This document shows positions 19,673 through 36,735 of a stretch of 64,000 nucleotides of DNA, piece after piece. The notes under the pieces were generated by a model. That model saw only the letters and a program-made list of their open reading frames with translations, was not told where the DNA came from and did no database searches. A program made the position numbers and the translations under genes. Each line of letters starts with the position of its first letter. The first letter of the stretch is position 1. The stretch covers positions 16,128 to 80,127 of the forward strand of contig JAJEAI010000111.1 in the NCBI GenBank assembly GCA_022824205.1, given 5' to 3'. This stretch comes from Candidatus Binatia bacterium. GTDB lineage: Bacteria > Desulfobacterota > Binatia > UBA9968 > JAJDTQ01.

Positions 19673-19793
19673 GATGGGACTCCTTTCCGCTAAAGTGACG
19701 GAAACCCTATCAGCCGTCTCTCACATTGACAAGCCACGGATGATGACCTAGTGGGTTCAGGGTCGCGAATTTCCCGTCAGAGAAAGGGTCTCC

Positions 19794-21560
19794 ATGTCGG
19801 ACATCAAGAAATCGGAACAGCGCTGGCAGTCGGACGTCATCGTCGACCTCATGAAGCTCTACGACATCCCCTACGTCGCCCTGAACCCGGGGGCGAGCTA
19901 CCGGGGGCTGCACGACTCCATGGTGAACTACGGCGAGAACGACCCCGAGATGCTGCTGTGCAACCACGAGAAGATCGCCGTGCAGATCGCCCACGGCTAC
20001 GCCAAGGCGTCGGGCAAGCCCATGATCGCCATCGTGCACGACGTGGTGGGGCTGCTGCACGCCCCCATGGGCGTCTACTACGCCTACATCGACCGCTGCC
20101 CCGTGTTCATCATCGGCGCCACCGGTCCCATGGACGAGAAGTACCGGCGCCCGTTCATCGACTGGATCCACACGGCTTTCGCCCAGGGGGACGCGGTGCG
20201 GAGCTTCACCAAGTGGGACTACCAGCCCGGCAGCATCCACGGCGTGCCGGATTCGTTCGCGCGCGCCTATTCCATCATGATGAGCGAGCCCCAGGGGCCC
20301 ATCTACATGTGCTACGACTCGGCGCTCCAGGAGAGCCCGCTCACCGAGGACGTGCCGATGCCGCCCGCGTCGGCGGTCAAGGTGCCGTCGCGCATCGCGC
20401 CGGAGCAGGCGGCCGTGGCCCGGGCCGCGGAGATGCTGGTGAAGGCGGACAACCCGCTGCTGCTCACCGAGTACGCCGGACGCATGCCGGTGGGCTTCGA
20501 GCCCACGGTGGAGCTGGCGGAGACGGTGGGGGCGTCGGCCTTCGACATCTGCAAGCGGCTGGGCTTTCCCAACCGCCATCCCCAGAGCATGAGCTTCAAC
20601 TCCGACGCCTTCAACGGCGTGGACCTGGTGATGGCGCTGGACGTGGTGGACTGGACCCGCGGCTCGCACCGGCTCAACACCCAGACGCGCGAGATAACGG
20701 TGGTGACCGCGCCGGACTGCAAGTGGGTGGACCTGGGCTTCGCCGACATCGAGATCAGCAAGTGGGCCACCGACTACAACAAGCACAACAACTGGGACCT
20801 GCGGGTGATGGGCGACACCGCCATCACCATCCCCGAACTGACCAAGGCGTGCCGCGCGCTCATCGACGCGGACCCGGCGCTCAAGGCGCGTGTCGACGAG
20901 CGCAAGCAGGCGCTGGCGGACAAACACGACCAGCAATGGGCCAAGTGGCAGAAGCAGGTGGAGTCGGAGATGGACCAGCGGCCCATGACCGAGTCCCGGC
21001 TGGCCTACGAGGTGTGGCAGGCCATCAAGGACGAGGACTGGGTGCTGACCGCGGGGACTCTCAAGGACTGGGTGCAGAAGATATGGGACTTCGACAAGCC
21101 GTACCGGCACCCGGGCCGGGAGTTGGGCACCGGCACCCAGATCGGCATGTCCATCGGCGTGGCCCTGGCCCACAAGGGGCAGGGGAAGCTGGTGGTGGAC
21201 CTCCAGCCCGACGGCGACCTGATGTTCGACCTGGGCGCGCTTTGGATACCCATCAAGTACGACATCCCGATGCTCGTCGTCATGTACAACAACCGCGCCT
21301 ACTACAACGACTGGGCGCACCAGATCCACATGGCGCACCAGCGCGGCACCGACCCGCGGCGCGCCTACATCGGCATGGACCTGGAGGCGCCGCCGCCCGA
21401 CTTCGCGCACATCGCCCGGGGCATGGGCTGGTACGCGGAAGGCCCCATCGAGGACCCCGCCGAGGTGGTGCCGGCGGTGCGCCGCGCCATCGAGCAGGTC
21501 AAGGCCGGCAAGCCCGCGCTGGTGGACCCCATCGTCTGGCGCCGGGACATCAATACCTGA
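19794..21560 (+). CDS. Thiamine pyrophosphate-dependent enzyme (acetolactate synthase-like), paralogue 1
   Basis: 588 aa; LNPGASYRGLHDSMVNYG, CNHEKIAVQIAHGYAKASGKP, TPP motif QPDGDLMFDLGALWIPIKYDIPMLVVMYNN. Confidence 0.9.
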   Translation: MSDIKKSEQRWQSDVIVDLMKLYDIPYVALNPGASYRGLHDSMVNYGENDPEMLLCNHEKIAVQIAHGYAKASGKPMIAIVHDVVGLLHAPMGVYYAYIDRCPVFIIGATGPMDEKYRRPFIDWIHTAFAQGDAVRSFTKWDYQPGSIHGVPDSFARAYSIMMSEPQGPIYMCYDSALQESPLTEDVPMPPASAVKVPSRIAPEQAAVARAAEMLVKADNPLLLTEYAGRMPVGFEPTVELAETVGASAFDICKRLGFPNRHPQSMSFNSDAFNGVDLVMALDVVDWTRGSHRLNTQTREITVVTAPDCKWVDLGFADIEISKWATDYNKHNNWDLRVMGDTAITIPELTKACRALIDADPALKARVDERKQALADKHDQQWAKWQKQVESEMDQRPMTESRLAYEVWQAIKDEDWVLTAGTLKDWVQKIWDFDKPYRHPGRELGTGTQIGMSIGVALAHKGQGKLVVDLQPDGDLMFDLGALWIPIKYDIPMLVVMYNNRAYYNDWAHQIHMAHQRGTDPRRAYIGMDLEAPPPDFAHIARGMGWYAEGPIEDPAEVVPAVRRAIEQVKAGKPALVDPIVWRRDINT

Positions 21561-21636
21561 GGGAATGGACGGGTCGCTCGTCACGCCGGCGACCCTCCAT
21601 GCGACTCCGTTATCCGTTATGTCCGCGTCCTCCTTG

Positions 21637-21809
21637 TTCCGTCATTCCCGCCTTTCCTTCATTCCGTCATTCCCGCGAAAGCGGGAATCCAGGGGTGGGG
21701 CGGGGAGTCGCCCGCTTACCTATCCCCACCCCTGGATTCCCGCTTTCGCGGGAATGACGGAAGGGAGACGCGGGAATGACGGAATGAAGGAAAGGCGGGA
21801 ATGACGGAA
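21637..21809. repeat. Long nested inverted repeat built from GTCATTCCCGC units
   Basis: Left arm 21637-21700 (TTCCGTCATTCCCGCCTTTCCTTCATTCCGTCATTCCCGCGAAAGCGGGAATCCAGGGGTGGGG) is matched by the reverse complement of 21724-21809 except for one extra repeat unit in the right arm. Confidence 0.85.
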
Positions 21810-21917
21810 AGGGGCCGCGGGAATGACGTAAGGGGAGACCCGGGCATGACGGAAGACGGAGTGCGGTAAGTACGGAAAAGATGCGGGACAGACGTTTCTG
21901 AACGAGAGGGAACACAC

Positions 21918-23702
21918 ATGAGCAAGGCGGAGAAGATCGAAGCGGTCGAGATCAAGAAGTCGGACCGCAAGTGGCAGTCGGACGTCATCGTCGACATGGT
22001 CAAGCGCTACGGGTTCGAGTACATCGCGCTCAATCCCGGCGCCAGCTACCGGGGCCTGCACGATTCGCTGGTGAACTACGGCGAGAACGACCCGCCCATG
22101 ATGCTGTGCAACCACGAGAAGATCGCGGTGCAGATCGCCCACGGCTACGCCCGCGCCACCGGCAAGCCGATGATCGCCATCGTGCACAACCTCGTGGGGT
22201 TGCTGCACGCTCCCATGGGCATCTACTACGCATACCTCGACCGCGCACCCATCTTCATCATGGGCGCCACCGGCCCCATGGAGGAGCCGAAGCGGCGCCC
22301 CTTCATCGACTGGATCCATTCCGCCAGCGTGCAGGGCGAGGCCATCCGCCACTACGTCAAGTGGGACTCCCAGCCCACCACCATCGACGCCGTGCCCGGC
22401 GCCTTCGCCCGGGCCTACGCGGTGATGATGAGCGGCAAGCAGGGACCCATCTACATGTGTTACGACGCCGGCCTGCAGGAGGCCGCGCTGGACCACGAGG
22501 TGGCGATGCCGCCGGAGGACAACGTGCACGTCCCGGCGCAGGCCATGGCCGACCCGGCGGCGCTGGAGAAGGCCGCCGACACCCTGGCGGCGGCCAAGCG
22601 CCCGGTCATCGTGGCCGATTTCGCCGCGCGCCCGCCCCACGGCTGGGACCACGTGGTGGAGTTGGCCGAGACCTTGGGGGCGGCCGTCTGGGACTGCGAC
22701 TCGCGCCTCAACTTCCCCAGTGAGCATCCGCTCAACCTGAGCATGGACAGCGAAGGCTGCTACAAGGACGCGGACGTGGTGCTGACGTTGGACATCGCCG
22801 ACTTCGAGAAACCCACGCACGTGCGCGACATCGCCACCCGCACGGTGGTGAGCATGGTGCCGGAAGACGCCACCTGGATCGACATCGGCTACACCGACAC
22901 GGAGATCAGCAAGTGGGCCATGACCTATGCGCGTCCGTTCTACGCGCACCAACGCATGACCGCGGACCCCGTGACCGCGGCCCCGGCGTTGACGAAGCTC
23001 CTGAAGGAGCGCATCGACGCGACGCCGGGCCGGGCCGGGCAGATCGCCGAACGCACCGAAGAGGTCGGCCGGCGCCACGCCGAGGTCCGCGCCGAGTGGC
23101 TGCGGCAGGCAAAGGAAGACCGCTGGGACGCGGTGCCCATGACCGTGCCGCGGCTCGCGCTCGAGGTGTGGGAGGCCATCAAGGACGAGGACTGGGTGCT
23201 GACCTCCGGCACGCTGCACGACTGGGCGCGCCGGCTGTGGAACTTCGACAAGCCCTACCGCCACGGCGGCCGCGAGCTGGGAACCGGCACGCAGATCGGC
23301 ATCTCCCTGGGCGTGGCCCTGGCCCACAGGGGGAAGGGCCGTTTGGTGGTGGACCTTCAGCCCGACGGGGACCTGATGTTCGACGCCGGCAGCCTGTGGA
23401 TCGCCGCCAAGTACCAGATCCCCATGCTCATCGTGATGTACAACAACCGCGCCTACTACAACGACTGGAACCACCAGATCGTGATGGCCCGCAACCGCGG
23501 CACCGATCCCAACCGCGCGCACATCGGCATGGACCTGTGCGGCCCCGACCCCGACTTCGCCACCATGGCCCGCTCCATGGGCTGGTATGCCGAGGGACCC
23601 ATCGAGAACGGCGACGACGTACGGGCGGCCCTGGACCGCGCCATCGAGCAGGTCAAGCAGGGCAAGCCGGCGCTGGTGGACACGGTGACCCAGCGGCGGT
23701 GA
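21918..23702 (+). CDS. Thiamine pyrophosphate-dependent enzyme (acetolactate synthase-like), paralogue 2
   Basis: 594 aa; colinear and clearly similar to the 19794-21560 product (LNPGASYRGLHDSLVNYGENDPPMMLCNHEKIAVQIAHGYARATGKPMIAIVHN...). Confidence 0.9.
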   Translation: MSKAEKIEAVEIKKSDRKWQSDVIVDMVKRYGFEYIALNPGASYRGLHDSLVNYGENDPPMMLCNHEKIAVQIAHGYARATGKPMIAIVHNLVGLLHAPMGIYYAYLDRAPIFIMGATGPMEEPKRRPFIDWIHSASVQGEAIRHYVKWDSQPTTIDAVPGAFARAYAVMMSGKQGPIYMCYDAGLQEAALDHEVAMPPEDNVHVPAQAMADPAALEKAADTLAAAKRPVIVADFAARPPHGWDHVVELAETLGAAVWDCDSRLNFPSEHPLNLSMDSEGCYKDADVVLTLDIADFEKPTHVRDIATRTVVSMVPEDATWIDIGYTDTEISKWAMTYARPFYAHQRMTADPVTAAPALTKLLKERIDATPGRAGQIAERTEEVGRRHAEVRAEWLRQAKEDRWDAVPMTVPRLALEVWEAIKDEDWVLTSGTLHDWARRLWNFDKPYRHGGRELGTGTQIGISLGVALAHRGKGRLVVDLQPDGDLMFDAGSLWIAAKYQIPMLIVMYNNRAYYNDWNHQIVMARNRGTDPNRAHIGMDLCGPDPDFATMARSMGWYAEGPIENGDDVRAALDRAIEQVKQGKPALVDTVTQRR

Positions 23703-23760
23703 ACCGAATCGGACCGGCCGCGCAAGCGCCAACACCGAATCGACACCGACGCCCCGAATC

Positions 23761-24057
23761 GTCATTCCCGCGGAACAGGCTGTGTCAAAACCCCAGTTCC
23801 CAACGCTGCAAGGCCAGTCTGTCATTCCCGCGAAAGCGGGAATCCAGGGGCGGTGGTGGGGCACTACGGCGGCGTTTCCCCGCCCCACGCCTCCTGGATT
23901 CCCGCTTTCGCGGGAATGACGATTCTGGGGGTTGTTGCCTCTCTAAAATGGTGTCTTGGCACAGCCTGGGAAGCGGGAATCCAGGGGAGGGGAGGCGGTG
24001 GAGGGTCGTGTGCCCTGGCCCCACCCCTCCTGGATTCCCGCTTCGGCGGGAATGACG
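23761..24057. repeat. Two adjacent composite palindromic repeats
   Basis: 23761-23921 full form with GCGGAACAGGCTGTGTCAAAAC head; second degenerate copy about 23951-24057. Confidence 0.85.
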
Positions 24058-24146
24058 TTCCGTTGCGTAGTGGCGGCGGGAGTATGGACGCACCCGTTTC
24101 GAGGGATGACGGTCCCGGCTTCGGCACCCTCCCGATCCCAACGGTC

Positions 24147-24527
24147 ATGCGGTACGACTACTACGACATACGGGGCTACGAGCGCCTCATCGTCCGCATC
24201 ACCCTGGGGCTCGACCCCGACACGGCCGCCGACGTGGAGCGCTACGGCGCCGCCTCCGTCCTGTGGAGCCTCTACAACCGCTTGCGGGACGACCGGCGGG
24301 AGGTGTTTCTCGTCGGGCTGGGCAACGCGCTGGAGAAGAACGCCAGCCGCAAGGCGCTCTCGCAGATGGTGCTGTTCGCGTCCAACCCGGTGGTGGACGT
24401 GGACCACAGCATCGACATCCTCGGCGACTGGTTCGTCAAGAACAAGAAGGCCGACCCGGGCCTGTACGAGGCGCTGGACGCCTACTGGCGCCGCCGTTTC
24501 AAGCGCGGTTTCGACGAAGACGCCTGA
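24147..24527 (+). CDS. Hypothetical protein (126 aa)
   Basis: MRYDYYDIRGYERLIVRITLGLDPDTAADVERYG...RRRFKRGFDEDA; start uncertain, upstream ORF region is repeat-derived. Confidence 0.55.
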   Translation: MRYDYYDIRGYERLIVRITLGLDPDTAADVERYGAASVLWSLYNRLRDDRREVFLVGLGNALEKNASRKALSQMVLFASNPVVDVDHSIDILGDWFVKNKKADPGLYEALDAYWRRRFKRGFDEDA

Positions 24528-24552
24528 GGCGGCAGCCTCCGGCCGCCCACCT

Positions 24553-25626
24553 TCAGGCCGCCTGGATCCGCGCCCATGCCGCGTCGTAGAGCCGCGCGGT
24601 CTCCGGTCCCGGGTAACGGCTTGGTTCACAGGCCGCGAGCGTCGTGTCGTTCGGGAAGATGGCGGGGTTCTCCCGGTAGCCCGCCGGCAGCAACGCCTTG
24701 GCCGCGGCGTTGGGCGTCGCATAGCGAACGGCGTCCGCGATCGCCGCGCCGACTTCGGCGTCCAGGATGAAGTTCAAGAAGGCGTGCGCGTTCTCGGGGT
24801 GAGGCGCTCCCCGCGGGATCGCCAGCGCATCCTCCCACACCGCCGACCCCTCGCGGGGCACGACATAGCCGATGTCCTCGTCCTTCTCCATCGCCTGCAG
24901 CACGTCTCCGTTCCATTCCATGACGATGTCCGCTTCGCCCGAGAGCAGCAGGTCCTGCCCGGTGTCCGGCGCGAACGGCTTGAGGTGCGGCTTCTGCGCG
25001 ATGATCAGCGCCTCGGCCATCTTGATGATCTTCGGTCCCGTCGCATTGAGGGAATACCCCAGGTACTTGAAGGCGGCGCCCAGCACGGATCCCGCGTCGC
25101 TCTGAAGCGCGCAGCGGCCCCTGTAGCGGTCGGACCGGTAGAGCCAGCGCCAACTGTCGGGTATCCCGTCGCACCGGGACTTGCGGTAGCCGATGCCCAT
25201 GGTTCCCCACAGGTAGGGAACGGAGTGGCGGCGGCCGGGGTCGAAGGCCGCATCCCGGAAGGCGGGCTCGATGTTGGCCATGTTCGGGATGGCCGCATGG
25301 TCCAGGGGCATGAGCATGTCGTGCGCGATCATGCGCTCGACGGAGTCGTTGGTGGGCACGATCACGTCGTAACCTGGATTGCCCGCCTTCAGCTTCGCAA
25401 ACAGCTCGTCATTGTCCGCGAAGAGGTCCATGCGGACGGATATGCCGGTGCGGGCCTTGAAGTCCGCCAGGGTCGTCTCGCCGATATAGTCGTCCCAGTT
25501 GTAGAAGTTGAGCCTGGGCTCCTCCCTGGCGAAACCGCGCCGCGGCAGGATCGAGAGGGCTGCCGCCGCGACCGCTCCCCCGAGGAAACGGCGGCGTGTC
25601 AGACGATGTTCCGAAAGCGGACGCAT
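24553..25626 (-). CDS. Extracellular solute-binding protein, spermidine/putrescine (PotD)-like, Tat signal
   Basis: Twin-arginine leader LTRRRFLGGAVAAAALS; RLNFYNWDDYIGETTLADFKARTGISVRMDLFADNDELFAKLKAGNPGYDVIVPTN. Confidence 0.9.
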   Translation of the reverse strand: MRPLSEHRLTRRRFLGGAVAAAALSILPRRGFAREEPRLNFYNWDDYIGETTLADFKARTGISVRMDLFADNDELFAKLKAGNPGYDVIVPTNDSVERMIAHDMLMPLDHAAIPNMANIEPAFRDAAFDPGRRHSVPYLWGTMGIGYRKSRCDGIPDSWRWLYRSDRYRGRCALQSDAGSVLGAAFKYLGYSLNATGPKIIKMAEALIIAQKPHLKPFAPDTGQDLLLSGEADIVMEWNGDVLQAMEKDEDIGYVVPREGSAVWEDALAIPRGAPHPENAHAFLNFILDAEVGAAIADAVRYATPNAAAKALLPAGYRENPAIFPNDTTLAACEPSRYPGPETARLYDAAWARIQAA

Positions 25627-25782
25627 GGCGGTTCTCCTCGGCCCTTCAAAGCCGGCTGGCGGGATCGGCGGCCGCGGTTCCCTTGGGAGCCGGGCATCGA
25701 TGGTGAACGGCGAGGGCGCTGATGGCGGCGACCTGGGAGGCTTTGTCGCGCCCGGAGGCGGGAGTCCGGGCGCGACGTTTCG

Positions 25783-26604
25783 CTATTCGTCGAAGAACGC
25801 CAGCGTGCGGATCTCGATGCTCTCCCGCGGCGGCGCGTCCGCCAAGGTGTTGGGGTGCTCGAAGGCGGAGTGCGCGGAGAAACGCGCGCGGCCGTCCGTC
25901 TTCGAGTCGTAGCACTTGAAGACGATGGCCTCGTCCGGCTGCATGTCCGGGAAGTAGTAGAAGCGGTGCGCCGGGTTGTAGGTCAGGTGGTAGGTCTCGC
26001 CCAACCGGTTGGGATGCGGCCGCACGGTGGGGATCAGGTCCTCGGTGGCGATGCTCTGGGCGTCGCACATGGCCAGCGGCGAGCGCAGCACCGGGTTGAG
26101 CATGCCGCGCCAGACCTGCACCACGGCGAAGCGGCGCTTGAACAGGTCCTCGGCTTCGTCGGGCAGGAGGTCGCGCACGCGCTCCGGGCCGGACCACTCG
26201 GTGTAGTCGTTGTGCACGTTCTGCACCGGTCCCTTGGCGCCCTTTTCCTCGTGGCCGGAGCGCAGGGTGTGGTCGAAGATCAATACCCGGCAGGCGCCGG
26301 TGTGCTCCTTGATGAGCGCTTCCATCTCGGGATAGTACACCGCGCGGATCTCGTCCTCGTCGAAGAAGTCGGTCACCTTCGTGGGCTGGGGTCGCAGGGC
26401 GAAGCCGTTGCGCTCGATGGAGAGATCGGGATGCTGGCGTCCGTTACGGACCAGCGCCGTGTGGGTCTCGTACGTCCGGTCCTTGTGCGGGTAGCCGAGG
26501 CTGGGCTGGTCGAACGTCGTGACGGGCCGGGGGCCCTTGTGCACCATGTAGTTGAACGTCGCTTCGACGACGTCCTCGATGTTCTCGGCTGCGGCTGTGG
26601 CCAT
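25783..26604 (-). CDS. CmcJ/NvfI-family (putative Fe(II)/2OG-type) oxidoreductase
   Basis: VHNDYTEWSGPERVRDLLP...FAVVQVWRGMLNPVLRSPLAMCDAQSI...HRFYYFPDMQPDEAIVFKCYDS...AHSAFEHPNT. Confidence 0.8.
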   Translation of the reverse strand: MATAAAENIEDVVEATFNYMVHKGPRPVTTFDQPSLGYPHKDRTYETHTALVRNGRQHPDLSIERNGFALRPQPTKVTDFFDEDEIRAVYYPEMEALIKEHTGACRVLIFDHTLRSGHEEKGAKGPVQNVHNDYTEWSGPERVRDLLPDEAEDLFKRRFAVVQVWRGMLNPVLRSPLAMCDAQSIATEDLIPTVRPHPNRLGETYHLTYNPAHRFYYFPDMQPDEAIVFKCYDSKTDGRARFSAHSAFEHPNTLADAPPRESIEIRTLAFFDE

Positions 26605-26705
26605 GGTGTTCTCCTTGGTCGTGCGGCTTGGAAACGAAAGGCTTGGTACGGACCTGGAAATCTCCCCTGTATTATACACCGGCAAGGCGAATTGCGTGAA
26701 CCGGA

Positions 26706-27668
26706 TCAGCCCGCCAGCACCCCTTGCTCCGCCCACACGCGCTGCACCTCCCGGCTGGTGCTCACGAGCGCGAAGTGCGTGGCCATGTTCTTGAGCGAGT
26801 AGCGCTGCAGGTCGGCGTCGTAGGCGGCCACGCAGTCCTCCAGCACCACGTTGTAGTAGCCCCGGGCGAAGGCGTCCCGCACCGTGGCCTCGACGCAGCC
26901 GTTGGTGGCGGCGCCGGTGAACAGCAGCGTCTTGACGCCGAGGCGTCCCAGGGTGGCGTCCATCTTGGGGTTGGTGAAGCCGCTGTGGTGCCACTTCTTC
27001 ACCCTGACGTCGCCGGGCGCGGGCGCCACGAAGTCGCAGACGTCCCATCCCGGGGTTCCCGGGACGGTGTACTTGGCGTTGGCCAGCCCCACCCGGGCGC
27101 GCCGCGCCAGGATCGGGCCGTTGTCGTGCTCGTTGTCGTTGGAGGTCTGCGTGTAGATCACCGGCACGCCCGCGGCCCGGGCCGCTTCCACCATGACTTT
27201 CAAGGGTTCGCGCATGGCTTCGACGAAGCTCAGGTCGCCCTTCATGCGCGCGCCCCCGGGAGCGCAGAAGTCATTCTGCACGTCGATGACCACGAGCGCC
27301 GTGTGCGCCGGCTTGACCGTGTCCGACAGCTCCGTCCACACCTCCTGCACCTGGGGCTCCCACATCTCCTCTTCCGGGTCGAACTCGAAGTCCGCGATCT
27401 CGCGCGACTCGAAGATGGGCCGTCCCACCTCCCGCGCCACTTGCCGGTGCACCGGGTGGTCGACGTAGCGCTGAAGGCTTTCCGCGTCCTCGCACACGGC
27501 CACCATGGCGTAGTCGTAGTCGCCGTCGCGGCGCAGGTTGGGTCCCATGGACCAGCTCAGCAGGTCCGGGATGGAGTCCTTCATGGAGTTGTAGCCCGCG
27601 ATCATCCGGTCGATCTGATCGGGGGAAGCCTCGGGCTTGAGCTTGACGAACACGACGTGCTTGATCAT
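26706..27668 (-). CDS. Dabb (stress-responsive A/B barrel) domain fused to isochorismatase-family hydrolase
   Basis: N-term MIKHVVFVKLKPEASPDQIDRMIAGYNSMKDSIPDLLSWSMGPN (Dabb); C-term HTALVVIDVQNDFCAPGG...FTGAATNGCVEATVRDAFARGYYNVVLEDCVAAYD (isochorismatase Cys). Confidence 0.85.
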   Translation of the reverse strand: MIKHVVFVKLKPEASPDQIDRMIAGYNSMKDSIPDLLSWSMGPNLRRDGDYDYAMVAVCEDAESLQRYVDHPVHRQVAREVGRPIFESREIADFEFDPEEEMWEPQVQEVWTELSDTVKPAHTALVVIDVQNDFCAPGGARMKGDLSFVEAMREPLKVMVEAARAAGVPVIYTQTSNDNEHDNGPILARRARVGLANAKYTVPGTPGWDVCDFVAPAPGDVRVKKWHHSGFTNPKMDATLGRLGVKTLLFTGAATNGCVEATVRDAFARGYYNVVLEDCVAAYDADLQRYSLKNMATHFALVSTSREVQRVWAEQGVLAG

Positions 27669-27760
27669 CGGCGCCTCCGGACGGGTTCGTGGAATCGTGC
27701 GGTAGCCGGGGTAGAGAATATCCGAGAGCCGCCTCACAAGTCAATTTTCAACGCAAGCGA

Positions 27761-30340
27761 TCAGAAGTCCGTGTGCCAGTGGATGCCGATGTTCGAGCTC
27801 CGTTCGTTGGTCAGTTCGCTGTCCACCAGCAGGTTGTCGGCCAGGTTCAGCTCGACCACGATGGAGGAGCGCCGGCCGAGCAGGCTCTGTCTGGCGCCGA
27901 CGAAGACGTCTCCGAGGTTCTTGCCCACGGTCACCGACACGGAATCGGTGTCCGCGCCGGACAGCCGCACGTCGTCCAGCCGCGCGGCCGTGCGCAGGTT
28001 CTCCTGCAGCCCGAAGACCACCCCTTCGCCGAACAGGTTGGCGAGGGCGACGGAAAGCTGGATCGCCTGCGCCACGGTGAGCGCCTGCCGGGAGGCGCCG
28101 AACAGGAGTTGCGGCAGCACCTCCTCCTCGGGCAATCCCGACTGTGAGACGAAACGGATCCGCGGGCTCTTGGCGCGGCCGCTCAGGTGCAGCCCGCCCT
28201 GGTGCGTGTTCGTGCTTCGTTCCAGTCTCACGTCGAGCCGCGGTTCCGGCTTGGCGCTCCCGTCGAACACGATGCGGCCCTGCACGAGGTCGAAGGGTTT
28301 CCCGAGCAGGTCAAGCCCGCCGCGGACGCTCTGGAGCGTACCCGTGAGCACGGGGGCCTTGGGCGCGCCCGTGACCCTCAGGTCCATGTCCCATTCGGAA
28401 TCGACGCCGCGTCCGCGTATGAACACGCCGCGCTGGGCCCGCACCGCGAGGTCGAGGGAGAGGCGCGCCGGCCTGCCTTCTCGCGCGTCCTCGGGGGCGC
28501 CCTCGATGCGGATGCCTTCGAGCGCCGCCACCTCCGGGGGTGCCGCGTCCTCGAGGCGGTATTCGGCCCTGTTCACCTCCAGGTCGGCGCGGAGCGCCAG
28601 TTGCTCGAACGTCCCGTCGAGCGTCGCGGTGCCGTTCAGGCGCCCGGTGACATCGTCCCGGCGGATCAGCGTGGCTTCGTCGATGCGCAGGTCCACGTCC
28701 ACGCTGCGGCCCAGTTGGATCGTGCCGGTGGCCGCGAGCGTGCCCGGGCCCCGGTCCGACGCCGTGGCCGTGAGCCCGATCCGGTCGTTGCCCGCGAGCC
28801 GGGCCTGGATCGCCAGGTCGGCGAGCACGGTGCCCGCGTCGACGCTGCGGTATTCGCCGCCGGTCACGCTGCCGTGCCCGGAGAGCCGCGGTTGCGCCAG
28901 GGAACCCGCCACTCGGACGTCGATGTCCACGTCGCCGTCGAGTTGGTGCCGCGTCGTGGGAACCAGCGCCCATATCTGTTCGAGGCGGCCGCGCCAGGTC
29001 AGGGAGCCCTCCAGTTCGGCGTTCCTGGAGAAGACGGGCAGGCCGTTCTCTCCGGCGCCCGCGGCCATGGCGAGGCGCGCGCGCACCGGCGTGTCGAAGG
29101 CCCCGCGGATCTCCGACCGCGTCGTCAGGCGCGCGCCGTCCCATTCTCCATCCAGGTCCACGTCGACCACCCCGCCGTCCTCGAAGCCCTCGAAGACGAG
29201 GTCCCGTCCGCGGGCCTCCAGGCCCGCATTCGGCTTGGGCGGCCGGGTGTCGAAGGCCGCGTCCAGGTCCAGGGATCCGGTGATGGCGGGTATGCCCGCC
29301 AGACGGCTCATGGCGGCCATGGACAAGCCTCGTGCCGAGAACTCGCCGTCCAGCCCGGTTTCCGTGCCGTTGAGGTTCCCGGTGATGCCGCCACCGGAGT
29401 CGAGCCTCAGGTCGAACCCGGAGACCTCGAAACCGTCGATTCCGTAGCGGGCGTTCATCGGCTTCCCGAGCCGGACGGTCTCGGACGCGAACCGGGCGCT
29501 GGCGGAATCTACGACCACCCTGATCTCTTCTTCTCCGGCATGCGAGACCGTGGCGCGGCCCCGGGCGTCGAAGGCCCCCTCCACCGCGGTGTCGAAGGAG
29601 AGGCGCCAGTCCTCGGGGGGGCCGTCGGCGCTGAGCTGGAGGCGGGCGGGCGCGTCATCGCGGAAGCCAACAAGCGCCGCGACCACGCCGCCGGCCGCCT
29701 CTTCTGCGAGGGCTTCGAGACGCGCCGTGCCCGCGGCGAAGTCGCGCCGGACGTGCAGGGAAATGCGCCCCTCGACCGCGTCCGTGCGGCGCAGGCGCAG
29801 CACGATCTCTTGCAGGTCGTCCTTGTCGGACGCGTGTCCCTCCGCGTCGAACCGGATCGATCGCGGCAGCACGCCCTCGGCGATGAAGACGCGTTGCAGC
29901 CGGATTCCCTCGAGGGAGAGGGCGATGGGCGACCGCGGCCAGTCGAACGGGCCGCGCCGCCAGAGTGGCTGCGGCTTCAACCGCGGCAACTCGGCGCGCT
30001 CGGACGGCTTGCGCGTCACGGAGACGCCTGAGAACTCCAGGCGCCGGATGGCCAGCTCGCCGTCAAGGAGCCTTTGCGGCTCCCAGGCGAAGCTCATCCG
30101 CTCGACTTCCATCCACACGCCGGTGCCGTCCGAGACCTCCACGCCCACGAGACGGGTCAGGCCGTCGTCCCCGTCCTCGATGGAACGCACCTGTATCTCG
30201 AACGAGCCCGGCGAGCTGATCTGGTCGAGCGCGAGCCGGATGAGCCTGTTCCGTATGTCGGAGAACTGGATCTGAGCCTGCCCGGCGCACGGCAGCAGGA
30301 GGCCGGCGAGGAGAACGGCGATGGGCACGACGCGGCGCAT
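27761..30340 (-). CDS. tamB: Translocation/assembly module TamB-like protein
   Basis: Starts MRRVVPIAVLLAGLLLPCAGQAQIQFSD; C-terminal GRIVFDGSAKPEPRLDVRLER...LFGEGVVFGLQENLR...DSVSVTVGKNLGDVFVGARQSLLGRRSSIVVELNLADNLLVDSEL...GIHWHTDF. ORF-track extension to 31465 is a shadow of tamA. Confidence 0.88.
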   Translation of the reverse strand: MRRVVPIAVLLAGLLLPCAGQAQIQFSDIRNRLIRLALDQISSPGSFEIQVRSIEDGDDGLTRLVGVEVSDGTGVWMEVERMSFAWEPQRLLDGELAIRRLEFSGVSVTRKPSERAELPRLKPQPLWRRGPFDWPRSPIALSLEGIRLQRVFIAEGVLPRSIRFDAEGHASDKDDLQEIVLRLRRTDAVEGRISLHVRRDFAAGTARLEALAEEAAGGVVAALVGFRDDAPARLQLSADGPPEDWRLSFDTAVEGAFDARGRATVSHAGEEEIRVVVDSASARFASETVRLGKPMNARYGIDGFEVSGFDLRLDSGGGITGNLNGTETGLDGEFSARGLSMAAMSRLAGIPAITGSLDLDAAFDTRPPKPNAGLEARGRDLVFEGFEDGGVVDVDLDGEWDGARLTTRSEIRGAFDTPVRARLAMAAGAGENGLPVFSRNAELEGSLTWRGRLEQIWALVPTTRHQLDGDVDIDVRVAGSLAQPRLSGHGSVTGGEYRSVDAGTVLADLAIQARLAGNDRIGLTATASDRGPGTLAATGTIQLGRSVDVDLRIDEATLIRRDDVTGRLNGTATLDGTFEQLALRADLEVNRAEYRLEDAAPPEVAALEGIRIEGAPEDAREGRPARLSLDLAVRAQRGVFIRGRGVDSEWDMDLRVTGAPKAPVLTGTLQSVRGGLDLLGKPFDLVQGRIVFDGSAKPEPRLDVRLERSTNTHQGGLHLSGRAKSPRIRFVSQSGLPEEEVLPQLLFGASRQALTVAQAIQLSVALANLFGEGVVFGLQENLRTAARLDDVRLSGADTDSVSVTVGKNLGDVFVGARQSLLGRRSSIVVELNLADNLLVDSELTNERSSNIGIHWHTDF

Positions 30341-32202
30341 CAGAAGGCCTGCCCCATGGAGAGGTAAAGGTGGAAGTCGTCGTCCAGCGGCCGGGGGTTC
30401 AGGGGGACGGCGACGTCGACCCGGATCGGCCCGGCGGCGGAGAAGTAGCGGAGCCCGAGGCCGCCGGCCCACAGGATCCCGTCGAAGACATGGCCGTCGA
30501 TGTTCCGGGAAACCGCGCCCGCGGCGACGAACCCGACGGCGCCGAGGCTGTCGTTGAAGCGCAGGCGCAACTCGCCCTCGGCCTCCAGCGCCAGCCGGCC
30601 CCCCACGGGCTTGTTGTCGGCGTCGAGCGGGCCGATGGCGTAACGCCCGTAACCGCGCACCGATTCGCCGCCGCCGGCATAGAGCCGCCGGTTCGCCGGC
30701 ACCGAGCCGAGTCCGTCGGACAAGATCATCGCCCCGCGCCCGCGCGCGGCCGCGACGTAACGCGCGTGGGCGTCGAGACGGGAATAGGCGGACGCGGTGG
30801 CGTCCAGGGTGAGGAAATACGTTCCCGACCCGTCGAAGAGTCCCGCGTGGGGCACGGCATCCAGCCGGAGGCGCCTTCCGCTCTTGGGATCGAGCAGGTC
30901 GCCGGTGCTGTCGTAGGCCGCGAAGACCGGCGCGGCGGCGAGCCGGGTCTCCGCTTCGGTGCCGCCGTCGCGCACCGTGCCGAGCTCTACCTCGGCGCCG
31001 GCGCCCACTTCCCATTGGCGGTCCAGGCGCCGCGACAGGCCCACGAAACCGGTGCCCGTGAGTGCCTCGAAGGCCTCTTCCTCCTTCTGCTCCACGTTCA
31101 GGCTTGTCCGCAGGTCCTGGCCCGGCCGGAGGTACTGGGGTTTGCGCAATTCCGCTCCCAGGCTCTGTTCCACGCGTCCCCCCTCGGCCGTGAGGAGCAG
31201 GATCTCGTTGGCCCCGAGAAGGTTCCGGTGACGGAAGCTGGCGCGCGCCGACGGCCCGGCGTCGGTGTCGTAGCGCACGCCGCCCGCGATACGCCGCCGC
31301 AGGCGCTCTTCGAGGGTCACGTGCACCGGCAGGGCGGAGGAGTCCCCGTCGCGCGGCGCGGTTTCCGGGATGCGCACCGAGACCGACTTGAAGAGGTCGG
31401 TGGAGGCCAGGCGGCGCTGGTACTCCGTAAGCGCTTCGGCGTCGGCGGGTTGTCCGGGCTCCCATGGCAGGTACGTGAGCAGGTAGTCCTCGGTGATCGT
31501 CTCCAGGCCCGTGAAGGCCACCGGCCCGAACACGAAGGCCGGCCCGGTGGCAATGGCGCTCGCCACCGTCAGGGTGGCCGTTGCCGGATCGGCGGAGCCC
31601 GACCGCTTGACGAAGGCCGCGTAGGGGAACCCTTGGCGATGGAGCGCATCCACGGCCGCCCGCTCCGCGTCCACGATCGAGGCCGACAACGCCGGGCCGC
31701 CCAACGGAGATCCCAGCGTGCGCGCATCCAGCGACGGGGATGCGGCCGTGCCGCCGTCCTCGAGCAGAAAAACGTGCTCCGCCAGCGTGAACACGGGTCC
31801 GGCTTCGATGGAGAAGGTCACGGTGGCCCGTTCCGCTCGCGCTTCCACGCGTGCCGCCGCCGCCGCCGCATAGTACCCCTGCGAGTGCAGGATCCCCACC
31901 AGTCTGCCCTCGTCCTCGCGCGCGCGGCGCAGGAGAAAGTGCGTGCTGGGGGCGCCGTCGTCCTTGAACCTGTAGGTCAGGAGCGTGCGGCCGGCAAGTT
32001 CCCGAACCTTGTCCGACGGCGACCCTTCCAGGATGACTTCATAGGCTGCCGCCGGCTCGGGATTCGACTCGGGGGAGGGAACCGGCGGCTCCGTGACCGT
32101 GCAGGCGGCGGCGACCGCCAGACAGAAGGCGGCGTGAAATGCAGCGCGCACAAGCGTTCGCGGCCGTGCGGGGCCTTGGCAACGTGGCTCGATCGAGTTC
32201 AT
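30340..32202 (-). CDS. tamA: Omp85/BamA-family outer membrane protein, TamA-like
   Basis: POTRA-like N-terminus, C-terminal GGGESVRGYGRYAIGPLDADNKPVGGRLALEAEGELRLRF...GLGLRYFSAAGPIRVDVAVPLN...YLSMGQAF; stop overlaps tamB start (TGATG). Start assigned at MNSIEPRC. Confidence 0.88.
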   Translation of the reverse strand: MNSIEPRCQGPARPRTLVRAAFHAAFCLAVAAACTVTEPPVPSPESNPEPAAAYEVILEGSPSDKVRELAGRTLLTYRFKDDGAPSTHFLLRRAREDEGRLVGILHSQGYYAAAAAARVEARAERATVTFSIEAGPVFTLAEHVFLLEDGGTAASPSLDARTLGSPLGGPALSASIVDAERAAVDALHRQGFPYAAFVKRSGSADPATATLTVASAIATGPAFVFGPVAFTGLETITEDYLLTYLPWEPGQPADAEALTEYQRRLASTDLFKSVSVRIPETAPRDGDSSALPVHVTLEERLRRRIAGGVRYDTDAGPSARASFRHRNLLGANEILLLTAEGGRVEQSLGAELRKPQYLRPGQDLRTSLNVEQKEEEAFEALTGTGFVGLSRRLDRQWEVGAGAEVELGTVRDGGTEAETRLAAAPVFAAYDSTGDLLDPKSGRRLRLDAVPHAGLFDGSGTYFLTLDATASAYSRLDAHARYVAAARGRGAMILSDGLGSVPANRRLYAGGGESVRGYGRYAIGPLDADNKPVGGRLALEAEGELRLRFNDSLGAVGFVAAGAVSRNIDGHVFDGILWAGGLGLRYFSAAGPIRVDVAVPLNPRPLDDDFHLYLSMGQAF

Positions 32203-32290
32203 CGGGGTCGTTGAGCGCGCGAGCTTTCGAATCGAGCTGAAGGTTTCCGAGCCGGCCATTTCCGGGGCTGCGACCGCGGCCCTACACGGA

Positions 32291-32506
32291 TCAGCTCCCG
32301 CCGAACCCCACCGTGATCCGGCCTTCCTCCACGATGACCGGGACGTCCCGGTTGCCGTCATTCAACGAGAGCATGCGCCGCAGGCCGTCCTCGTCTTCCA
32401 GAACGTTGATGTACTCGACGGTGAAGTTACGGTCCGAGTAGTCCGCACGGGCACTCGACGTGTAGTGTCAGAAGTCGTGTCCGAAGATCAGAACCTTGTC
32501 CGCCAT
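32291..32506 (-). CDS. Glutaredoxin-like UXX-star-type selenoprotein (in-frame TGA read as Sec)
   Basis: Own minus-strand translation from ATG 32504-32506: MADKVLIFGHDF[TGA]HYTSSARADYSDRNFTVEYINVLEDEDGLRRMLSLNDGNRDVPVIVEEGRITVGFGGS*. TGA at 32468-32470 sits at the redox position of a Trx/Grx fold; reading frame, cis-Pro (VPVIV) and GFGG intact after TGA. Not in ORF track. Confidence 0.85.
32432..32459 (-). promoter_or_regulatory. Candidate bacterial SECIS hairpin downstream of the Sec TGA
   Basis: Minus-strand RNA 3' of UGA: CACUACAC-GUCGAGU-GCCCGUGCGGACU-ACUCGGAC; GUCGAGU pairs with ACUC(G)GAC with one bulged nt, small CC/GG upper stem, apical loop about 19 nt from UGA with G as second loop nt. 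Confidence 0.6.
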
Positions 32507-32710
32507 GTCCGGTCCTTTCCGACGGGACGTGTCCTCTTTTCCTTACGGCTAACCGCAAAATCGACGGATGGCAATCGCCGCGGCACGGTTCGTGCCGTTG
32601 TTTCGCGAAAAAACCCGTCTGGGGGTTATTTGGACGGGAACTTGTGCTATGAAGCGTGCTGGACTGCAGTCGCGGTTTGTCGTCGGACGAACGGTCAGGC
32701 GAGGCAACGC

Positions 32711-33496
32711 ATGGTCGAACGCTTCAAGGAACTCGGCACCATCACCTTCAGTCTCGTGCTGTTCACGGTGATCTGGGAGTTGTCGGTGTGGGTCTTCTCG
32801 GTGTCCGAGTTCCTTCTGCCCGCGCCCTCGGTTGTGATCACGACCCTCGTCCTCAAGATCGGTCCTCTTCTCCAGCACTGCCTCGTCACTTTCCGGGAGA
32901 CCGTCTACGGGTTTCTGATGGGTCTCGTGCTGGGGGTCATCTCGGCCGTCATGATCGTCTACTCCCGGCTCCTCCAGAACCTCCTCTACCCGCTGATCCT
33001 CGTGGCGCAGATCGTCCCCAAGGTGGCCATCGCGCCGCTCCTGCTGGTGTGGGTGGGCTACGGCGAGATCTCCAAGGTGCTCATCGCCTTTCTGGTTTCC
33101 TGGTTCCCCATCATCGTCACCACGGTCCAGGGCATGCGCATGGTGCAGCCCGAGATGCTGGATCTGGTGAAGTCGCTGCAGGCTTCGGACTGGCAGATCT
33201 TCACCAAGGTGCGCCTGCCCAACGCGCTGCCGCACTTCTTCGGCGGCCTCAAGATCGCCATCACGCTGGCGGTCATCGGCGCCATCATCGGCGAGTTCGT
33301 CGGCGGCAACACCGGCCTCGGATACCTGGTCATGGTGGCCAACTACGAGGTCAACACCCCGCTCATGTTCGCCGCCCTCATCGTGCTGTCGGCGCTGGGC
33401 TTGGTCCTGTACGGCGTGCTGGTGCTGCTGGAGATGTGGCTGATCCCGTGGAGCCTCGGCGAGGAAGAGCAGCAGATGACGGGTTTCGGCATGTAG
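32711..33496 (+). CDS. ABC transporter permease (SsuC/TauC/NMT1-associated type)
   Basis: Multiple TM helices and LVWVGYGEISKVLIAFLVSWFPIIVTTVQGMR..LVKSLQASDWQIFTKVRLPNALPHFFGGLKIAITLAVIGAIIGEFVGG. Confidence 0.92.
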   Translation: MVERFKELGTITFSLVLFTVIWELSVWVFSVSEFLLPAPSVVITTLVLKIGPLLQHCLVTFRETVYGFLMGLVLGVISAVMIVYSRLLQNLLYPLILVAQIVPKVAIAPLLLVWVGYGEISKVLIAFLVSWFPIIVTTVQGMRMVQPEMLDLVKSLQASDWQIFTKVRLPNALPHFFGGLKIAITLAVIGAIIGEFVGGNTGLGYLVMVANYEVNTPLMFAALIVLSALGLVLYGVLVLLEMWLIPWSLGEEEQQMTGFGM

Positions 33497-33549
33497 CCGG
33501 GCTCTGGCGGCCGGTCAGGTCGCAGCGTTTGAACTTGGAACCGAAGTCG

Positions 33550-34323
33550 ATGACGGAAAACGGGAAAGCCATCGAAGTCAGGAACCTCACCAAGGTGTAT
33601 CCTTCCAAGGATGCGCCCATCGTGGCGTTGGAGGACGCCTCGTTCGAGGTCTACGAGCAGGAGTTCATCTCCCTCGTGGGCCACAGCGGCTGCGGCAAGA
33701 CCACCATCATGAAGATCATCGCCGGCCTGCTGGACAAGACCCGCGGCGAGGTGCTGGTGAACGGCGCGCCGGTCACCGGACCCAAGTCCAGCACCGGCAT
33801 CGTGTTCCAGACGCCGGTACTGTTCCAGTGGCGCACGGTCATCGACAACGTCATGCTGCCCATCGAGATCCTCGGTCTCTCCAAGGAGCAATACTATCCG
33901 AGGGCGATGGAGATGCTCGAGTTGACGGGGCTGACGGAGTTCAAGGACAAGTTCCCGCGGGAGCTGTCGGGCGGGATGCAGCAACGTGTCTCCATCAGCC
34001 GGGCCTTGGTGCACGACCCTTCGCTGCTGCTGCTCGACGAACCCTTCGGCGCCCTGGACGCCATGACCCGGGGCGAGATGAACATGGAGCTCCAGCGCAT
34101 CTGGAGCGAGAAGAAGAAGACCAGCCTGCTGATTACGCACAGCATACCGGAAGCGGTGTTCCTGGCGGACCGGGTCATGGTGATGACGCCTCGGCCGGGG
34201 CGCATCACCGACATCATCGACATCGGACTGCCACGGCCCCGCACCCCGGAGATGCGGCTTTCGGTGGAGTTCACCGAGTGTGTGCGAGAGGTGGGAAAGA
34301 CCATCGGGCTTCAGTATCTGTGA
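33550..34323 (+). CDS. ABC transporter ATP-binding protein (SsuB/TauB type)
   Basis: Walker A GHSGCGKTT, signature ELSGGMQQRVSISRALVHDP, Walker B LLLLDEPFGALD. Confidence 0.95.
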   Translation: MTENGKAIEVRNLTKVYPSKDAPIVALEDASFEVYEQEFISLVGHSGCGKTTIMKIIAGLLDKTRGEVLVNGAPVTGPKSSTGIVFQTPVLFQWRTVIDNVMLPIEILGLSKEQYYPRAMEMLELTGLTEFKDKFPRELSGGMQQRVSISRALVHDPSLLLLDEPFGALDAMTRGEMNMELQRIWSEKKKTSLLITHSIPEAVFLADRVMVMTPRPGRITDIIDIGLPRPRTPEMRLSVEFTECVREVGKTIGLQYL

Positions 34324-34369
34324 ACAAGTGGCGACGGAAGTCGTCAATCAATTTATGGAGGTACACGTC

Positions 34370-35374
34370 ATGAAACGCCTGTCCATCGCGCTTGCGATCT
34401 TCTTGCTGTCCATGGCCGCCGCCGGCAGCGCGTCGGCCGCCGACAAGGTCAAGTTCGCCCTCGACTGGATCCCCTACGGCAAGCACGCCATGTTCTATGC
34501 CAGCATCGACCAGGGGTTCTGGAAGGACGCGGGCCTCGATGTCCAGATGACCCGCGGCTTCGGCTCCGGCGACACCGTGAAGCGCGTGGCCTCCGGCACC
34601 GAGGACTTCGGCTTCGCGTCGGTGGGCAACATGATCGCGGCCAGGTCGCGGGGGGCCGATCTCAAGATGGTCGGCATGATCCACGACAAGACCCTGGAGA
34701 CCGTGGCGACGCTGGCGGCCAACAAGATCACCAAGCCGTCCGACCTCGAGGGGAAACGCATCGGCTCCCCCGAGGCCAACGCCTCGCGGGTCATCTTCCC
34801 GGCCTTCGCCAACATCAACAAGTTCGACCACAAGAAGGTCACCTGGGTCAACATGACCGTGCCCGCCACCACCCCGAGCCTCATGGCCGGCCGGGTGGAC
34901 GCCATCCTGATCTTCTTCACCGAGAAGCCGACGGTGGACGCGGCCTCGGCCAAGGTGGGCAAGAAGCCGTACTACATGCTCTACGCCGACTACGGCATGG
35001 CCACCTACGGCAACGGCCTGCTCGTGTCCGAGAAGACCCTCAAGGACAAGCCGGACCTGGTGAAGCGGTTCCTGGCCGCCACCTACAAGGGCATTGCCTG
35101 GTCGGTGGAGAACCCGCAGAAGGCCGTGGACATCTTCATCAAGCACAACCCGGCCATCAGTCCGGACCTGGCGCGGAAGCACTTCGACATCGCGGTGGAT
35201 TCGCTGCTCTCCAAGAACGCCCTCAAGGAAGGCATCGGCCACATGACGGAGCCGCGCATGGTGTTCACCAACGACCTGATCACCACGCACATGAAGCTGC
35301 CGAAAAAGACCGCGGTGGAGGCGGTGTACACCAACGCGTATCTGCCGAAGCTCTTCCCCAAGCGGGCCAAATAG
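34370..35374 (+). CDS. ABC transporter substrate-binding protein, NMT1/THI5-like
   Basis: Signal peptide MKRLSIALAIFLLSMAAAGSASA then DKVKFALDWIPYGKHAMFYASIDQGFWKDAGLDVQMTRGFGSGDT. Confidence 0.93.
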   Translation: MKRLSIALAIFLLSMAAAGSASAADKVKFALDWIPYGKHAMFYASIDQGFWKDAGLDVQMTRGFGSGDTVKRVASGTEDFGFASVGNMIAARSRGADLKMVGMIHDKTLETVATLAANKITKPSDLEGKRIGSPEANASRVIFPAFANINKFDHKKVTWVNMTVPATTPSLMAGRVDAILIFFTEKPTVDAASAKVGKKPYYMLYADYGMATYGNGLLVSEKTLKDKPDLVKRFLAATYKGIAWSVENPQKAVDIFIKHNPAISPDLARKHFDIAVDSLLSKNALKEGIGHMTEPRMVFTNDLITTHMKLPKKTAVEAVYTNAYLPKLFPKRAK

Positions 35375-35492
35375 CCGGGAAGGGCATGGCCCGCCGGGCG
35401 TTGACGCACCAACGCTCCGAGCGTCGTTCCCGCCGTCGAGGAGGCCGTGTCGAAACGCCGCAAGAGGTGGAGTGGCACGGCCTCCCCGTATT

Positions 35493-35618
35493 GTCATTCC
35501 CGCGGAACAGGCTGTGTCAAAACTCGCTACGCGGAGGCGTTACGAATACGTCATTCCCGCGAAAGCGGGAATCCAGGCGCATCTCCACCCCTGGATTCCC
35601 GCTTCCGCGGGAATGACG
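35493..35618. repeat. Composite palindromic repeat
   Basis: GTCATTCCCGCGGAACAGGCTGTGTCAAAACTCG...GTCATTCCCGCGAAAGCGGGAATCCAGG...CCTGGATTCCCGCTTCCGCGGGAATGACG. Confidence 0.87.
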
Positions 35619-35652
35619 GTTCGGGGCATTGACGCCCTGGAAGGACATGAGA

Positions 35653-36735
35653 ATGAGTGAACAGTTCGTCAGCAACCAGGAACTCATCGTACAGGCGCGG
35701 CGCAACCTGCCCCAGCCCGTGTGGGACTACCTGAGCGGCGGCAGCGAGTCGGAGACCACCATGCGCCGCAACCGCCTGGCCCTGGACTCGCTGGCCTTCC
35801 GCCCTCGGGTGCTCGTGGACGTCTCCGAGGTGGACACCTCCACCACCGTGCTCGGCCACAAGCTGCGCATCCCGGTCATGCTGGCGCCCATCGGGTCGCT
35901 CCAGCAGATCACGCCGGAGGGCGCCGTGGCCGCAGCCAAGGCCGCCAACGAGTTCGGCACCGTCAACTTCGTGAGCTCCGTGACCCAGCCCGAGCTCGAA
36001 GAGACGGCCGCCGCGACCCCGTCGGACAAGATCTTCCAGCTCTACATCCGGGGCGGCCTGGACTGGGTCGAAAAGATCCTGGCCCGGGTCAAGCAGTCCG
36101 GCTACAAGGCCCTGTGCCTGACCGTGGATTCGGCACACTACAGCAACCGGGAACGCCAACTCATGAACCGCTGGCTGCCGCCCAGCAAGCGGCGCGAGGC
36201 TGCCAACCAGGACCGCCTGTGGCAGGCCAGGCTCACCTGGGACACCATGGACGCCATCAAGGAGATCGGTGGGATGCCCTTTATCCTCAAGGGCGTGGCC
36301 ACCGCCGAGGACGCCGCCATGGCCGTGGAGCACGGCGTGGACGTCATCTACGTCTCCAACCACGGCGGGCGCCAGCTCGACCACGGTCAGGGGACCATGG
36401 ATACGCTCCCGGAGATCGTCCAGGCCGTGGGCGGCAAGGCCGAGATCGTCATCGACGGCGGCTTTCTGCGGGGCACGGACGTGCTCAAGGCCGTGGCCTT
36501 GGGCGCCAAGGCCGTGACCATCGGCAAGCTCCAGGGCTGGGCCCTGGGCGCGGGCGGTCACGAAGGTCTCGTGCGCGCCCTGCAACTCCTGGAGAACGAG
36601 ATCATCATCGCCATGGGCCTCATCGGCGTCACCCGGATCGACCAGCTCGGCCCGTGCCACGTGTGCAAGGCACCCCCTGCCGCGCTGCCGCACGAGATGA
36701 GCACCTTCGTCAACCTGCCGCAGCGGCTGCTGTAG
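35653..36735 (+). CDS. FMN-dependent alpha-hydroxy-acid dehydrogenase/oxidase
   Basis: LDSLAFRPRVLVDVSEVDTSTTVLGHKLRIPVMLAPIGS; VIYVSNHGGRQLDHGQGTMDTLPEIV; IDGGFLRGTDVLKAVALGAKAVTIGK. Confidence 0.93.
   Translation: MSEQFVSNQELIVQARRNLPQPVWDYLSGGSESETTMRRNRLALDSLAFRPRVLVDVSEVDTSTTVLGHKLRIPVMLAPIGSLQQITPEGAVAAAKAANEFGTVNFVSSVTQPELEETAAATPSDKIFQLYIRGGLDWVEKILARVKQSGYKALCLTVDSAHYSNRERQLMNRWLPPSKRREAANQDRLWQARLTWDTMDAIKEIGGMPFILKGVATAEDAAMAVEHGVDVIYVSNHGGRQLDHGQGTMDTLPEIVQAVGGKAEIVIDGGFLRGTDVLKAVALGAKAVTIGKLQGWALGAGGHEGLVRALQLLENEIIIAMGLIGVTRIDQLGPCHVCKAPPAALPHEMSTFVNLPQRLL

Follow-up and report, generated by a model that had tools for sequence, protein, structure and literature searches.

The window, by which we mean the whole 64,000-nucleotide stretch of DNA analysed here, very probably carries on its minus strand, from 32506 to 32282, a real gene of a catalogued selenoprotein family with two predicted selenocysteine (Sec) codons, of a kind that standard open reading frame calling misses. 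The frame opens at ATG 32506, encodes MADKVLIFGHDF up to a first TGA (TGA1) and continues for 58 residues to a second (TGA2), after which it reads TCC-GTG-TAG and ends at 32282. With both TGAs decoded as Sec, the product would have 74 residues, an active-site motif UHYT and a tail GGS-U-S-V. The features of the locus are as follows:

32282..32506, minus strand: complete gene for a 74-residue UXX-star family 1 selenoprotein, MADKVLIFGHDF-U-HYTSSARADYSDRNFTVEYINVLEDEDGLRRMLSLNDGNRDVPVIVEEGRITVGFGGS-U-SV, with stop codon TAG
32468..32470, minus strand: TGA1, predicted Sec13, at the position of the glutaredoxin active-site cysteine (UxxT); homologues carry U or C here and glutaredoxin profiles align across it
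32291..32293, minus strand: TGA2, predicted Sec72; TGA in 35 of 35 homologues read, with a stop three codons on in 34
32282..32284, minus strand: true stop codon TAG, from the sequence and the reading of homologues
32513..32520, minus strand: purine-rich sequence resembling a ribosome-binding site, GGAAAGGA, from the sequence

The initial annotation of this DNA had reported ATG 32506, an in-frame TGA at 32470-32468 and the encoded peptide, all of which are present in the sequence, and it recognised the right kind of product in calling it a selenoprotein. Two things escaped it, the second Sec and the real C-terminus: the 'normal stop' that it placed at 32293-32291 is itself a TGA, on the evidence below the second Sec codon, and the true stop is the TAG at 32284-32282. 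The identity of the gene, its two Sec codons, its family membership and the decoding machinery are established here by computation.

Membership of the family was assessed by profile search. The 74-residue protein matches NCBIfam NF041114 (UXX-star selenoprotein family 1) across the entire model (1-70/70) at 100.7 bits (E=3.8e-29), against a curated cut-off of 72 bits, while the 71-residue version plus TGA, without the C-terminal extension, scores 97.8 bits (E=3.1e-28); the extension makes the match both better and longer, taking it to the last column of the model. By these E-values, homology across TGA1 is far above chance. The parent family, NF041212 (Uxx-star subfamily), is broader, with a name that admits forms without Sec, and scores 81.1 bits against a cut-off of 66. 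In the profile search the protein stayed below the cut-offs of UXX-star families 2 and 3 and of every classical glutaredoxin model, with 22.0 bits for PF00462 (classical glutaredoxin) against a Pfam gathering cut-off of 22.9. The match to NF041114 bears out the earlier description of the product as a glutaredoxin-like member of the UXX-star family, and the placing of TGA1 at the redox cysteine position was also correct.

All of the NF041114 traits are present in the protein: the family's length, a score over the full model, a UxxT motif with TGA, and a second Sec with two residues between it and the stop. On our own reading of it, the name UXX-star fits this C-terminal U-x-x-stop. The protein differs from most members read in its active site (UHYT, against UPYT or UPFT) and tail (USV, against UGV), and has GHDF before Sec where members have GKDT. 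To mycoredoxins, glutaredoxin 3 and NrdH-like redoxins (TIGR02200, TIGR02181 and TIGR02194) the likeness is one of fold, nucleophile position, cis-proline (VPVIV) and GG turn, whereas the protein falls far under the cut-offs of these models, lacks the last helix and the fourth-position cysteine of CxxC, and bears a C-terminal Sec. The gene is a newly found member of a family that is already catalogued.

Both TGA positions were followed through 35 homologous genes read to their ends, five taken from named genome records and the remaining 30 from genomes within the phylum. The second site is TGA in every one of these, never TAA or TAG; the next stop stands exactly three codons past it in 34 and four past it in L057, and the second residue after the C-terminal Sec is V or I throughout. 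The first site is TGA in 30 genes and cysteine in five (L011, L028, L030, L038 and L057), a substitution that a genuine Sec site should show, and the alignment across TGA1 with U or C that had been proposed as a check on the gene was found. At L011:5037-5039 the first site reads TGT (Cys), with TGA retained at the second, so on sequence a C-terminal Sec can apparently persist without an active-site Sec. Among phylum matches over the cut-off (n=104, counted by hand), the matched stretch holds two TGAs in 76, one in 24 and none in four, and several of the matches with one or no TGA, among them G072, G352, G254 and G229, end short of the second site. The homologue in G198, a genome of the same order, has both TGAs and ends UEV-TAG.

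These counts bear directly on the version given in the initial annotation, in which TGA1 alone is recoded and TGA2 is a normal stop. TGA2 is a legal stop, and the 71-residue domain preceding it already matches the family, but we consider this version very unlikely given the invariant TGA at the second site, the two codons (three in a single case), the second of them V or I, that separate it from the stop, the hairpin after TGA2 described below, and the extension of the NF041114 model past TGA2 to its last column. In addition, a table in a review published in 2026 assigns 2 Sec and the motif UxxT to NF041114, under the name 'distant Grx-like protein 1' (PMC13188914). The possibility that a glutaredoxin-like gene has been broken by a nonsense change, or by sequencing error, would suit a fragmentary assembly and two in-frame stops under the standard code, but its probability is negligible: dozens of independent genomes share both TGA positions, the genome contains the full Sec machinery, and codon-position bias continues between the TGAs. 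Over that interval the window differs from L011, its nearest relative, at 14/3/16 sites at codon positions 1/2/3, and from L012 at 15/5/18, as expected of a translated frame. The pseudogene and miscall readings were both rejected on the conservation of the TGA positions; the presence of TGA at the matching codon in most homologues makes a miscall unlikely.

The model of the bacterial Sec insertion element (bSECIS) describes a loop of 3-9 nt with G in the first two places, on a stem of 4-16 bp, 16-37 nt from the UGA (PMC13188914). Two candidate elements were identified:

32265..32282, minus strand: candidate SECIS hairpin for TGA2, GGGC.GC-GGUC-GC.GCCC, from folding and comparison with relatives
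32432..32459, minus strand: possible SECIS hairpin for TGA1, inside the coding region, with its loop about 20 nt after TGA1, from a stem-loop fold

The candidate after TGA2 conforms to the model, having an apical loop GGUC from 16 nt past TGA2 and a stem of 6 bp with one C-A mismatch, and taken alone the window's hairpin is not better than shuffles. It starts at the stop codon and extends beyond it because the second Sec lies so close to the end of the gene. Both L011 and L012 have the same GGUC loop after TGA2 on a perfect stem, and the similarity of the window to these two relatives runs through the hairpin and ends soon after. Averaged over 34 sequences, the longest stem without a break after TGA2 measures 6.94 bp, compared with 5.23 bp in 1000 shuffled sets (maximum 5.91) and 4.6-5.4 in control regions. 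A SECIS element after TGA1 is plausible; the placement of its hairpin fits the bSECIS model (PMC13188914), with a fold no better than shuffles. Single-sequence folding gave z-scores near or above zero for both putative elements of the window, so that the case for the hairpins rests on comparison rather than on the window alone. An Rfam scan of the UXX-star locus returned no match.

The trait of Sec decoding (tRNA-Sec, SelA, SelB, SelD) is complete in the genome to which the window belongs. The tRNA-Sec scores 73.1 bits and has anticodon UCA, while selA, selB and selD adjoin one another on contig C39, all far over cut-off; the search for selA, selB, selC and selD that had been suggested as a check therefore recovered all four. 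The assembly consists of 209 contigs and is 97.3% complete with 4.9% estimated contamination, and consequently the sel genes, lying on other contigs, could in principle stem from another organism, a binning error that is possible and not needed to explain the data. The selD gene (G000:C39:8365-9291; L025/L059) itself contains a TGA in frame close to its N-terminus (EVKAAGU), and SelD of this genome is, judging from its sequence, probably a selenoprotein too. Three outcomes had been named beforehand as counting against the gene, namely a genome without sel genes, a miscalled TGA and a lack of homologues across the TGA, and none of them came true.

AlphaFold2 was run on six sequences with C in place of U. 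The model of the protein is beta-alpha-beta-alpha-beta-beta, with a mean pLDDT of 81 and a C-terminal tail of low confidence (pLDDT about 57). Its best PDB matches by Foldseek are mostly glutaredoxins and related redoxins, with a TM-score of about 0.7 and E-values of about 1e-3 to 1e-2, never below 1e-3; a sequence search of the PDB with the protein found nothing. The last glutaredoxin helix is absent from the model, which places the second Sec just after the GG turn. In glutaredoxins the GG turn adjoins the glutathione site, and for this reason Sec72 could lie within reach of Sec13.

We propose that SelB and charged tRNA-Sec, together with hairpins just downstream of each UGA, would insert Sec at codons 13 and 72, and that translation would stop at the TAG two residues past Sec72. 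The product would be a minimal thioredoxin/glutaredoxin fold, cut short ahead of the last glutaredoxin helix, with Sec13 at the nucleophile position without a resolving cysteine (UHYT) and Sec72 on a short flexible tail directly after the GG turn. Sec13 may then act as the nucleophile and Sec72 as its partner or as a soft-metal co-ligand, the two selenols cooperating either as a diselenide or selenenylsulfide redox pair or as a soft-metal or metalloid site. No reported biochemical function of UXX-star family 1 was found in the literature; the protein most likely acts either in redox reactions, as a selenol protein of the monothiol type, or in the handling of soft metals or metalloids. We lean towards the redox role for the two selenols. 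That they serve mainly as soft-metal or metalloid ligands in a genuine two-Sec protein seems to us the less probable option, albeit one of real weight, being favoured by the lack of a resolving cysteine in UHYT and by the statement in the 2026 review that UXX-star proteins may use Sec as a ligand for metal (PMC13188914). Set against it are the fold and active-site position, which are of glutaredoxin type, and the immediate neighbours (TamA/TamB, NitT/TauT-like ABC transporter and FMN dehydrogenase), which include no recognised metal-handling genes.

Downstream of the UXX-star gene on the same strand lie TamA (Omp85/POTRA), TamB and then a Dabb/isochorismatase-domain protein (26709-27668); divergently upstream are a NitT/TauT-like ABC permease, an ATPase, an NMT1-type binding protein and an FMN-dependent dehydrogenase. 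The position between tamA and a divergent ABC permease, as first described, is thus confirmed. A terminator-like sequence, AACCCCCAGACGGGTTTTTT (minus strand, 32605-32635), occupies the gap upstream of the gene before the permease. A cluster at 19782-36735, comprising the ABC importer, FMN dehydrogenase, Dabb/isochorismatase hydrolase and others, is common to the window and L011, and in part to L012. Further parts of the cluster shared with L011 are:

25786-26604: 273-residue protein
19782-21557 and 21918-23699: TPP enzymes

The UXX-star gene of L011 and of L012 is flanked by the same ABC genes and hydrolase, but TamAB is missing from the interval. TamA and TamB (27761-32214) separate gene and hydrolase in the window and in neither of these relatives, which suggests an insertion or rearrangement with an edge shortly past the hairpin of TGA2. 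Identity between L011 and the window is about 87-98% for the neighbours and 72-76% for the UXX-star protein. The shared neighbourhood was absent around L013-L015 and the same-order G198 within the flanks examined; hence it appears lineage-specific, and is a lead rather than evidence of function. A speculative and rather unlikely proposal is that the double-Sec protein of this lineage functions as a component of the conserved cluster (NitT/TauT-like ABC importer, FMN-dependent dehydrogenase, Dabb/isochorismatase-domain hydrolase, 273-residue protein and TPP enzymes), reducing or protecting one of its enzymes.

Gene callers truncate or miss genes of this kind, and even a careful reading that caught the first Sec overlooked its successor. 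A protein of 74 residues with two Sec codons, the second decoded through a hairpin beyond the stop, would be a compact system for studies of serial Sec insertion. The neighbourhood conserved in close relatives offers a lead on the function of the family; if the partnership with the cluster is true, UXX-star proteins would gain a partner pathway open to testing.
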